From: Psychromonas hadalis ATCC BAA-638 | GTDB lineage: Bacteria; Pseudomonadota; Gammaproteobacteria; Enterobacterales; Psychromonadaceae | Reading direction: 5' to 3' | DNA: 36,841 nucleotides | Assembly (NCBI RefSeq): GCF_000420245.1 | Contig: NZ_ATUO01000016.1 | Span: forward strand, 1 to 36,841 | The notes under the pieces: model-generated | What the model was told of the DNA's origin: nothing | What the model saw: the letters and a program-made list of their open reading frames with translations, nothing else | Database searches by the model: none | Shown: piece by piece, positions 10,308-33,821 of the stretch | Numbering within the stretch: the stretch's first letter is position 1 | Layout of the letters: every line of letters starts with the position of its first letter | Translations under genes and position numbers: made by a program

Positions 10308-10360
10308 TTCCGTTGTTACTCAAAATTCTGAATTTTGCATCTTGAATGGCAACGCGTATA
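10308..10360. repeat. Family-C repeat, copy 1 (short, degenerate)
   Basis: The right end GCATCTTGAATGGCAACGCG runs on to TATA at 10360 and matches, inverted, the start of the element at 33557. Bases 10308-10328 look like a decayed opposite end. A small hairpin CAAAATT-CTG-AATTTTG sits at 10321-10337. It lies between the DUF2989 gene and yeaC. Confidence 0.7.
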
Positions 10361-11478: not shown

Positions 11479-11495
11479 TTTACATTGGTAACTAA

Positions 11496-11705
11496 TATCA
11501 ATTCGGCTAAGTAACTGATCGTTTTTACTGGTTTAAATGACTAATGCCTGCGTTGCATTCAATCGTAATAGCTAACTGCTCTATTTGACTTCGTCAAACA
11601 GTACGCAGTACAAAAATGACCGTTTTGCTTATTACTCAATCATGCGCCTTGACCTTAGCAATTTACCTTACGTAAAACCTGATCATTATATTAAGCGGAA
11701 TGGTA
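11496..11705. mobile_element. MITE-like element, family A copy 1 (210 bp)
   Basis: Non-coding element with imperfect terminal inverted repeats. The left end begins TATCAATTCGGCTAAGTAAC, and the right end inverted begins TACCATTCCGCTTAATATAA. It is flanked by TAA on both sides (11493-11495 and 11706-11708), a probable target duplication. It matches the 32790-32946 element in opposite orientation, with about 53 extra internal bases that include a TTTGAC-TTC-GTCAAA hairpin at 11584-11598. It has no transposase. It fills most of the gap from 11479 to the nlpI start at 11821. Confidence 0.85.
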
Positions 11706-11820
11706 TAATTTAGTGCTCATTTTCTTTAAGTCATCTCTTTTTTATCTGAAGTCATTATCAGCCTTTACTTTGTTATTATTATGGTTCACTCTTAAAACTC
11801 TTATCTATAAGGCTTTATTC

Positions 11821-18312: not shown

Positions 18313-18504
18313 GTGACTACTCAGACCGTTGCCATTTAAGCCTATTTCGTCGTTAAAAAAAGCTCACAAATTCATCGGGAATGAATTTGAACATCCGTAG
18401 GATGGCCCGCAGGGCGAAGTACAGGATGTACGTAGTATTTAAACTACTAAACTGCGCTTTTTTGCCTTGAACTAGACATAAATGGCTTAGCCCTGAGCAC
18501 TTAC
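18313..18504. mobile_element. MITE-like element, family B copy 1 (uninterrupted)
   Basis: Non-coding, hairpin-rich element filling the phoR-nif3 gap. Its ends are imperfect inverted repeats of about 40 bases (CTCAG..C...GCCATTTA shared). Internal palindromes are CAAATTCAT-CGGGA-ATGAATTTG, CATCC-GTA-GGATG, GCCC-GCA-GGGC and GTAC-AGGAT-GTAC. Inverted, its outer parts match 32766-33044, where the second copy has lost the internal hairpins and carries a family-A insertion. Its hairpins may also serve as the end of the phoR transcript. Confidence 0.8.
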
Positions 18505-31089: not shown

Positions 31090-31141
31090 TTTTATTCTTC
31101 CTTGATAACTCATTGAATTGTCATTGTAAGCAAGTGAGTAT

Positions 31142-31228
31142 TTCAATACAGATTCAAAATGATTTTATTTCTTCAATACAGATGGGCAAAAAAGAGACTG
31201 TATGGCATTATTTTGTGTTATCTGTATG
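31142..31228. promoter_or_regulatory. Probable operator region of the MocR-type regulator
   Basis: TTCAATACAGAT occurs twice, at 31142-31153 and 31172-31183, exactly 30 bases apart (near three helical turns). The reversed core CTGTATGG occurs twice more, at 31198-31205 and 31222-31229, 24 bases apart. MocR proteins typically bind such spaced direct repeats. The region separates the DUF1127-lysE pair from the regulator gene. Confidence 0.6.
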
Positions 31229-31289
31229 GGAAAATAGATGGCATGTTCAGTATGAGAGAGATGGTTGTTATCAAATAGGTGATAAAAAA

Positions 31290-32711
31290 ATGAAACTATA
31301 TGAAAAAGTTGCAAAGGGTTTACGTGAAAGCATGGAAGCGGGATTGTTTATTGCTGGCGACAAATTACCCTCTATTCGCCAATTAGTGATTGAACACAGT
31401 GTCAGTATATCAACCGTGCAACAGGCTTATCATCAACTCGAGATGGAGGCATTGATTGAAGCGCGTCCCAAATCGGGTTACTTTGTTTCCCAACGCAGCG
31501 TTTTACCCGCACAGCCTGAAACCTCTCGTCCTGCGCAACGTCCTATTGATGTTTCACAATGGCAAGAGGTCTTAGAGTTATTACTCAGCAAAGCGGGTGA
31601 CGATTCAGTGCAGTTACAACATGCGATGCCTAATATGAGTGCACCGACATTAAAACCACTGTTAAAAAAGATGACCGAATTGATGCGTCATCAGGTTGCT
31701 TTGAGTTTACCTTACGGTGACATTAAAGGCTCACTTGTATTACGCGAACAATTGGCTAAATTAGCGCTCAATTCGGGGTGTTCATTACACCCTGATGATC
31801 TGGTGGTAACCTCTGGGTGCCAAGAGGGATTATCGGTTTGTTTACGCGCAGTGACTGAGCCGGGCGATATTGTTGCGGTTGAATCACCGAGTTTTTATGG
31901 GTCGATGCAAGCGATAAAAACCGCTAATTTAAAAGCGATGGAGATTCCCACCCATTCTGAACATGGTCTGAGTTTAGAAGCGCTAGAATTAGCGTTAGAG
32001 CAATGGCCGATTAAAGCGATTTTGGTCACTCCAACCTGTAATAATCCAATGGGTTATACCATGCCAGAAGAGGCAAAAAAACGGCTTTACCAACTAGCGC
32101 AAAGTTACGATATCTGTATTATTGAAGATGATATTTACGGGGATATTAGTTATCAATCACCGCGCCCTAAAACCATTAAATCGTTTGATGAAGATGGCCG
32201 TGTTTTATTATGTAGCTCATTTTCTAAAACCGTCGCGCCGGGCATTCGTGTTGGTTGGATTGCCCCCGGTCGTTATCGTGATAAAGTCACCCATATTAAG
32301 TATGTCAGTAGCTCAATGTGTCCGCTTTTACCTCAGTTAGCGGTTGCTGACTTTATTAAATCAGGCGGTTATCATCGTCACAGTCGTCGTGTGCGTCTGT
32401 TATATAAACAGGGACGCGATCATCTGGTACAATCTATTAAGGAACATTTTCCAGACGATACTCGCATCAGTTTTCCGCAAGGAGGATATATCCTGTGGGT
32501 TGAATTAAACAAAAAAATTGATACCGTAAAGTTAGCAACACAGTGTAAAGCAGGTGGGGTAAGTATTGCCGCTGGTCCACTCTTTTCAGCAACAGGAAAA
32601 TATCGCAGTTGCATGCGTTTGAATTTTAGTGAACAAACAGAGATTGAGCGTGAGAAGGGTATTCGCCAATTAGCTGTTTATATCAACCAACAAATACAAT
32701 TAATTAAATAA
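31290..32711 (+). CDS. MocR/PdxR-type regulator (GntR HTH fused to aminotransferase-like domain)
   Basis: Predicted transcription regulator. I start it at the ATG of MKLYEKVAKGL (31290), with AGGTGAT about 8 bases before, giving 473 residues (E. coli YjiR about 470). The longer frame from 31113 would cover the operator repeats and is rejected. The winged-helix GntR domain covers 1-75 (AGDKLPSIRQL, VSISTVQQAYHQLE). The fold-type I aminotransferase-like domain covers about 105-470, with TPTCNNPMGYTMP, IIEDDIYGDISYQ and the PLP lysine Lys313 in SSFSKTVAPGIRVGW. PLP, or an amino acid bound to it, is the likely effector. It most likely controls the divergent lysE-family exporter and itself. Confidence 0.93.
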   Translation: MKLYEKVAKGLRESMEAGLFIAGDKLPSIRQLVIEHSVSISTVQQAYHQLEMEALIEARPKSGYFVSQRSVLPAQPETSRPAQRPIDVSQWQEVLELLLSKAGDDSVQLQHAMPNMSAPTLKPLLKKMTELMRHQVALSLPYGDIKGSLVLREQLAKLALNSGCSLHPDDLVVTSGCQEGLSVCLRAVTEPGDIVAVESPSFYGSMQAIKTANLKAMEIPTHSEHGLSLEALELALEQWPIKAILVTPTCNNPMGYTMPEEAKKRLYQLAQSYDICIIEDDIYGDISYQSPRPKTIKSFDEDGRVLLCSSFSKTVAPGIRVGWIAPGRYRDKVTHIKYVSSSMCPLLPQLAVADFIKSGGYHRHSRRVRLLYKQGRDHLVQSIKEHFPDDTRISFPQGGYILWVELNKKIDTVKLATQCKAGGVSIAAGPLFSATGKYRSCMRLNFSEQTEIEREKGIRQLAVYINQQIQLIK

Positions 32712-32765
32712 TAAAATATAACTATTCTGATTTATTCTTGTGATGCTTTATGCAAAATAAAGGGT

Positions 32766-33044
32766 AAATGCTCAGGGCTAAGTCATTTATACCATTCCGC
32801 TTAATATAATGATCAGGTTTTACGCAGGGTAAATGACTAAGGTCAAGGTGCATGATTGAGTAATAACTGGCTATTGCGATTGAATGCAACGCAGATATTA
32901 GTCATTTAAACCAGTAAAAACGATCAGTTACTTAGGCGGATTGGTATTATGTCTAGTTCAAGGCGAAAAAGCGCAGTTTAGTCGTTTAAATGAGCATTTT
33001 CAACGATGAAATGGGCTTAAATGACGACGGCCTGAGTAGTTACA
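32766..33044. mobile_element. MITE-like element, family B copy 2, interrupted
   Basis: Both outer parts match the inverse of 18313-18504: TGCTCAGGGCTAAGTCATTT at the left, and TGTCTAGTTCAAGGC with AAAAGCGCAGTTTAGT after the insertion. It ends CCTGAGTAGTTACA. The hairpin-rich middle of copy 1 is missing here. A family-A element occupies 32790-32946. It fills the gap between the MocR gene and trxC, ending just before the trxC ribosome site. Confidence 0.8.
32790..32946. mobile_element. MITE-like element, family A copy 2 (157 bp), nested in B
   Basis: Begins TACCATTCCGCTTAATATAA and ends GGCGGATTGGTA. The ends are inverted repeats of about 25 bases with a few mismatches. TTA flanks it on both sides (32787-32789 and 32947-32949). 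Removing it with one TTA restores the sequence of family-B copy 1 across the joint (CATTTATGTCTAG). It is the inverse of 11496-11705, lacking about 53 internal bases. Confidence 0.9.
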
Positions 33045-33059
33045 ATAAAAGGAATATCT

Positions 33060-33491
33060 ATGACCACTATCACCACCCGTTGCCCACACTGCCAATCGAT
33101 GAATCGTTTACCGGTTGAACGTATCGACGCTTCTCCGACTTGTGGGCGCTGTAAAATGCAACTCGTTCAAGGTAAACCGATTGAGGGAACACCTGTTAAC
33201 TTATCCGCTTTAATCAAAGCTGATTTACCTGTTATTGTTGACTTTTGGGCACCTTGGTGTGGTCCTTGCAAAAACTTCGGCCCCATTTTTGAAGAACTTT
33301 CAACACAAGACAAATCGGCGCGTTTTGTAAAAGTAGATACGCAGGCGCAGCAACAGTTGGGGGCTTTGTATAATATTCGTAGCATCCCTACGTTAATGTT
33401 ATTTAAAAATGGCAAAGTGGTTGATACGCTAAATGGTGCGTTGCCTAAAACACAATTTAAAGCGTGGTTAAGTCAAGCGTTGTTGAAGTAG
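33060..33491 (+). CDS. trxC: Thioredoxin 2
   Basis: Cytoplasmic disulphide reductase with a zinc-binding N-terminal domain, 143 residues (E. coli TrxC 139). Zinc ligands are Cys8, Cys11 (CPHC) and Cys28, Cys31 (CGRC). The thioredoxin active site is WAPWCGPCK with Cys67 and Cys70, and the cis-proline is in RSIPTLMLF. The ribosome site AAAGGA is about 7 bases before the ATG and lies right at the end of a family-B element, so its promoter may be inside that element. E. coli trxC is under OxyR; I saw no OxyR site. A weak hairpin (TGGCAG/CTGCCA, 33519-33541) follows the gene. Confidence 0.95.
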   Translation: MTTITTRCPHCQSMNRLPVERIDASPTCGRCKMQLVQGKPIEGTPVNLSALIKADLPVIVDFWAPWCGPCKNFGPIFEELSTQDKSARFVKVDTQAQQQLGALYNIRSIPTLMLFKNGKVVDTLNGALPKTQFKAWLSQALLK

Positions 33492-33556: not shown

Positions 33557-33821
33557 TATACCCGTTATCATTCAAGATGCAAAATTCAGCAAGCTGTGAG
33601 GTGAACAGATTCTAGGCAGGAAGTTGAAGGTCTAACGGGTTCAATCAAAACTTCCTAACAACGAAGATGTTTGCCTCAAAGCTTGCCCTGCGGGTCGCCA
33701 GCTCGAACACTAATTTGGCGTTACAGTATTCGATAAGGGCTAACCATTGTCATCATACTGCGTCTTGCCTTAATGCCCGAGCTGACGACTGAATAAAGCA
33801 ATATTGATTGGTAACGGGTAT
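33557..33821. mobile_element. Family-C element, copy 4 (about 265 bp, both ends)
   Basis: Left end TATACCCGTTATCATTCAAG; right end inverted ATACCCGTTACCAATCAATA. The ends agree at about 18 of 23 positions. The interior has no coding frame of note. It fills the gap between trxC and the convergent radical SAM gene, ending 3 bases before that gene's stop codon. Short copies of the same ends occur at 10337, 12777, 13673 and 36633. Confidence 0.8.

Follow-up and report, generated by a model that had tools for sequence, protein, structure and literature searches.

How did one short repeat come to lie inside another, and which enzymes put the two of them there? The question arises at positions 32764-33043 of the window, by which we mean the whole 36,841-nucleotide stretch of DNA analysed, contig C16 of the Psychromonas hadalis ATCC BAA-638 genome (G000; 3.98 Mb in 351 contigs). 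At this locus an element of 157 bp (A, 32790-32946) with the termini TACCATTCCGC...GCGGATTGGTA is found inside a B element and is abutted by TTA on both sides. Both sit in the gap that separates reading frame 31113-32711 from reading frame 33060-33491, and neither frame is broken. The features involved are the following.

32764 to 33043, plus strand: B element, putative IS66-type MITE in its short form, host of the insertion; ends GTAAATGCTCAG...CTGAGTAGTTAC, flanks AATAAAGG/AATAAAAG (7 of 8 bases identical).
32787 to 32789, plus strand: TTA, left half of the target duplication of A.
32790 to 32946, plus strand: A element, putative IS630-type MITE of 157 bp; its joined flanks fit the other B copy.
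32947 to 32949, plus strand: TTA, right half of the target duplication of A.
18313 to 18504, minus strand: second B copy with the joint unbroken, the empty site within the window; it has a central module that is absent from the first copy.
11496 to 11705, minus strand: long form of the A element, 210 bp, with TAA at 11493-11495 and 11706-11708.

When A is removed and a single TTA is kept, the joined flanks of B read GTCATTTATGTCTAGTTCAAGGC, and without the insertion and one TTA the B element is 120 bp long. The second B copy reads GCCATTTATGTCTAGTTCAAGGC at the same joint, also with a single TTA, and agrees with the joined flanks in 22 of 23 bases round it, with more differences further out. 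The original prediction of a 157-bp family-A element interrupting a family-B copy, with the TTA duplicated and the other B copy running through the joint, is thus borne out by the exact ends, the joint and the empty site; only the extent given for B (32766-33044) had to be corrected, since the true span starts two bases and ends one base earlier. The long A copy had been said to have flanks in agreement with those of the nested one and this proved right, TAA/TAA being TTA/TTA in the orientation of the 157-bp copy. The arms of the two copies (80 nt each) are 94% and 93% identical, and the long form exceeds the short one by about 53 bp in its central part. The nested insertion of A into B is confirmed, as is the claim that these are two MITE families. 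We consider it very probable that cut-and-paste transposition put the 157-bp A into a TTA of an older B, duplicating this TTA, with an IS630-type transposase acting on A and an IS66-type transposase on B, so that A and B look like relics moved by the enzymes of larger elements. The observed parts of this explanation are the joint together with its empty site, the recurrence of a 3-bp TNA duplication from copy to copy, and the ends and duplication rule that A has in common with autonomous IS630 elements.

The genome-wide search that had been suggested for the ends gave a clear answer, with 184 A-type ends (94 + 90, at most one mismatch) in the P. hadalis genome versus 2 for the reversed control pattern. 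From a subset of the copies in this genome, 42 distinct A-type copies of several subfamilies with both ends present, 34 had identical 3-bp flanks (TTA 18, TAA 13, TGA 2 and TCA 1), and TNA was present on both sides in 38. Chance does not account for this, since 10,000 shuffles of the flank pairs gave 16.1 identical pairs on average and never more than 26. The expectation that copies would end at TACCA...TGGTA and be flanked by a 2-3 base duplication therefore held for these 34, but not for the other 8, which had no identical flanks. The commonest length was 157 bp (19 of the 42 copies). A matched 21 of the 23 other genomes of the same genus that were searched and, in the rest of the order, 2 of 36 genomes; the plasmid search gave no match of A. 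Being short and numerous, without a transposase gene, and provided with terminal inverted repeats and a target duplication, A is a prokaryotic MITE. Many A copies are located at contig ends of this assembly (e.g., C26, C138, C162 and C211). The MITE is therefore a probable cause of breaks in the assembly, and the numbers of copies counted may be inaccurate. The window also contains five copies of a third repeat, about 30-40 bp long (TTTGCATCTTGAATGATAACGGGTATA), at 10328, 12768 and 13701 on the plus strand and at 33589 and 36664 on the minus strand.

As an RNA, A is predicted to fold strongly (-55.4 kcal/mol; mean of shuffles -30.4; z -7.96), and this together with its spread through the genus would fit an element that is kept for a function in the host, as a hairpin RNA or a transcript processing site, and is not merely a parasite. 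We regard this as unlikely, since near-palindromic MITEs fold for structural reasons and neither A nor B was seen in the two orthologous gaps that could be compared by eye. These come from a search of named genomes with the regulator gene beside the locus, which found nine Psychromonas loci (74-85% identity), followed by Marinomonas (mostly 66-69%, although the best segment of L187 reaches 85%) and then others; the same downstream gene is kept in two of the nine (L150 and L153). As neither A nor B is seen there, B probably arose after those splits, unless it was lost in those lineages. Psychromonas arctica (L151) has a short A-like remnant next to this regulator gene, just past the end of the match.

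The B family had to be redefined to some extent. Long B copies start one module further upstream, at GTAACTACTCAGCACC, and the 8-bp flanks were at least 7/8 identical in all four outer pairs of this form caught by the pattern (L050, L052, L055 and L059), a count that leaves out long copies with altered ends. The clearest duplications are thus those of copies with the extra 5' module, and the usual B unit is longer than originally delimited. The B copy that hosts A is of the short form, and the second window copy has unlike 8-bp flanks and no duplication. Over all B end pairings, 5 of 16 reached 7/8 (shuffle mean 0.56, maximum 4), the alternative pairings of one copy being counted.

Matches to PF03050 were present in 13 of 24 genomes, and five of the 30 loci fetched had GTAACTACTCAG-type ends on both sides, delimiting elements of 1544-1601 bp. 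The 8-bp flanks of these elements are identical in L207 and in L197 (the transposase frame of the latter holds a stop), 7/8 identical in L198, and crossed between the two copies L206 and L215 of genome G005. The L207 protein matches PF03050 and the NCBI IS66 model NF033517. In this transposase, in its GTAA ends, which are an IS66 feature, and in the 8-bp duplications the partner of B is like the single-ORF type of IS66, the group ISBst12. IS66 elements carry a transposase whereas B carries no gene, and the ends in common identify B as a probable MITE of a single-ORF IS66-family element. An IS66-family transposase using GTAACTACTCAG-type ends, with an 8-bp duplication, would have moved B before the arrival of A. 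The P. hadalis genome itself has 15 IS66 matches; three of these loci were inspected as possible movers of B and rejected, as none has its ends.

Nesting would be expected of two families that are both common, and the P. hadalis genome has other cases. At C4 and C177, B contains A-type elements (159 and 160 bp); the C4 joint is clean, whereas the one at C177 differs from other B copies at two bases. At C109 one A lies within another, providing a second empty site with TTA. The reverse arrangement is found at L197 of genome G013 (1357-2957), where an IS66-type element with B-type ends is inserted in an A-type end and duplicates GATTGGTA, the last eight bases of that end (flanks read by eye). 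The age order therefore differs by locus, and the order originally proposed, B before A, stands for the window locus and not in general. Recombination or deletion between repeats might also have produced the joint, given that A and B copies are numerous, and two IS66 copies in G005 do have crossed flanks; we find this origin very improbable, because the ends are exact, TNA is duplicated, the joined flank is clean, the pattern is repeated at C4 (A-type in B) and C109 (A in A), and the two halves of B, once rejoined, give the sequence of a single B and not of two different copies. The terminal repeat of A-type MITEs is also occupied by an IS110/IS1111-type element (L242-L252 of G000), in which 5/5 ends of one type are continuous with inner A-type end sequence and 6/6 ends of the other type with TATGGTATAA; its assignment comes from a PF01548 match below the cut-off beside one C14 end, together with the protein start as read. 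Similar locations are described for IS1111 in Coxiella QMITE2 and for IS4321 in the ends of Tn21, in PMC5896051 and PMC11187229 (the latter citing other work), respectively.

A transposase with ends matching those of A, which the original prediction had proposed to look for, was found in relatives and plasmids, but not in intact form in the P. hadalis genome. A scan of IMG/VR with the A-end pattern returned 7 contigs, in one of which (L257) an A-type end lies 60 bp before a helix-turn-helix transposase, the contig ending inside the element. Its 129-aa protein piece, used as a query, matched 28 of 99 genomes. The own genome was among these with two matches, one with 2 internal stops and one a short piece, and no intact partner. 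The IMG/VR protein scan gave no contig beyond L257, and the search of phage records gave no match. In 33 IS630-type loci (30 genome and 3 plasmid loci) that were found via the protein and not via the ends, TNA-TACCA...GATC was present within 260 bp upstream in 20, compared with 0.03 expected from shuffles. The other 13 lack this defined upstream end; six of the 13 are weak matches (E above 1e-10), L271 and L274 have TNA-TACCA ends but no GATC, and in the remaining ones, some of them good matches (L277, L293), no such end was seen.

The elements concerned are about 1.1 kb long and have ends similar to those of A. Two copies in genome G006, 99.8% identical, have the boundaries TACC...GGTA and the flanks TAA/TAA and TTA/TTA. 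When the better of the two ends of A was compared with ten IS ends, 16 to 22 of 25 bases were identical; the right end of A agrees in 22/25 with the right end of the G006 element (L265/L292; shuffle maximum 16 for the L265 comparison), and the left end agrees best with L285 (21/25). In both elements read, the transposase is encoded in two adjoining or overlapping frames that meet near an A7 run, and the products match helix-turn-helix families, DDE_3 (PF13358) and the NCBI IS630 model NF033545. The spacing between the second D and the E, a point of difference from the IS630 family, is 31 residues in six of the seven proteins read and 29 in the seventh. By these transposase matches, as well as the short inverted ends, the partner belongs to the IS630 family. 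The similarity of the ends makes an IS630-family element the likely mobiliser of A, and A itself, to judge from the sequence, an IS630-derived MITE. The IS630-type transposase, probably produced from the two adjoining frames by slippage on the A7 run, would have acted in trans, binding the TACCA...GATC ends of A and linking them to a TNA target with a stagger of 3 bases; we infer this mobilisation in trans from the common ends and the common duplication rule.

Other candidates were discarded. None of 14 loci with PF01609 transposases had an A-type end pair (L107 had a single end with one mismatch), and the 1.4-kb candidate L230 turned out to be two separate MITEs. One of the PF01609 loci, L116 (C18:22982), has just upstream of it the IS630 relative at C18:22400, which that scan missed because its end is too different. 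Nor were A-end pairs 0.8-3 kb apart seen in two complete relatives, a misleading negative, as the G006 IS630 copies have ends that the pattern could not match. The surroundings of unpaired A ends contained MITE-sized pairs or single ends only.

The duplication rule could be examined in the IS630 copies themselves. From 49 loci, 38 were put through an end-finder that looked for TACCA...TGGTA 1050-1180 bp apart and did not require TNA (the 11 omitted had no A-type end upstream). No pair was found in 13, mostly truncated or contig-end copies, and two of the 25 pairs (L264 and L297) were dropped as chance pairings with poor ends. All 46 flanks of the 23 copies left were TNA, and they were identical in 18 copies (TAA 9, TGA 4, TCA 3, TTA 2) and not in five (L269, L273, L275, L294 and L302). 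L300 and L301 look like a single insertion in two related plasmids. A single IS accounts for L263, L298, L304 and L307-L310, which come from records of Aeromonas, Enterobacter and Citrobacter; its flanks are identical at each of these seven sites, and all four TNA forms are represented. Identical TNA flanks were found in records of Psychromonas, Vibrio, Photobacterium, Aeromonas, Enterobacter, Citrobacter, Spartinivicinus, Acinetobacter and Moraxella.

The best single proof of the 3-bp duplication is a pair of plasmids, the filled pKAM643_2 of Aeromonas caviae (L304, 2501 bases) and the empty pJBIWA001_5 of Raoultella planticola (L306, 1396 bases), that are otherwise identical. They differ by 1105 bp, the 1102 bp of the IS plus 3 bp, and prefix and suffix overlap by exactly 3 bases, TGA. 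Among the matches listed, at least 8 records (H74-H81) have the shorter, empty length at 100% identity, of which H75 alone was read; round L263, no record with both flanks and without the IS was found among the matches listed. This is not a TA duplication, because the empty site lacks the TA of TACC and there is none within TGA. That A duplicates TA as other IS630-Tc1-mariner elements do, with the TA of TACC/GGTA as the duplication and TNA as a target preference, has next to no chance of being right, for although the parts at hand of PMC8533490 give TA as recognised and duplicated by the whole group (TATA in its new Sailor elements) and those of PMC6267812 give it for Photorhabdus IS630 elements and MITEPlu5, this would need empty sites reading TNATATNA, whereas the window B copy, C109 and the plasmid pair all keep one TNA and no extra TA, and the TGA and TCA sites of A and of the IS630 copies contain no TA.

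With the TNA duplication in place, A can be compared to known systems. The IS630 family duplicates its TA target (2 bp), whereas the partner of A duplicates the 3 bp TNA and has TA as part of its own ends. MITEPlu5/ERIC, a Photorhabdus MITE related to CCC-type IS630 elements, is like A short (123 bp), with many copies, a strong hairpin and IS630-related ends, but has CCC-type ends and a TA duplication according to the portion of PMC6267812 at hand, while A is 157 bp long with TACCA ends and TNA duplicated and does not belong with it. QMITE2 of Coxiella resembles A and B in the nesting, as a MITE that is the target of another element (including IS1111 near its end), and differs in its 7-11 nt duplications from the IS630-type A with TNA, as far as the consulted portion of PMC5896051 goes. 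In the open-licence literature, searched for IS630 with TNA or 3-bp duplications and with ISfinder outside the scope, we found no report of an IS630 element that duplicates TNA.

Nested MITEs are in themselves ordinary, yet this one supplied exact ends and an empty site, and by following these up the IS630 branch behind A was reached; what is unusual is the 3-base TNA rule of that branch. We lean towards the view that a branch of IS630-Tc1-mariner gave up the TA rule, TA having become part of its own end and TNA being duplicated, and that it seeded a genus-wide MITE load of near-constant length. If this is true, the IS630-Tc1-mariner group is able to switch from recognising TA to a 3-base stagger on TNA, and the residues that determine the stagger could be identified from a comparison of the transposases of the TNA branch with those of TA users. 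For testing, the Aeromonas-type copies would be a good start, being near-identical at seven sites and having an empty allele.
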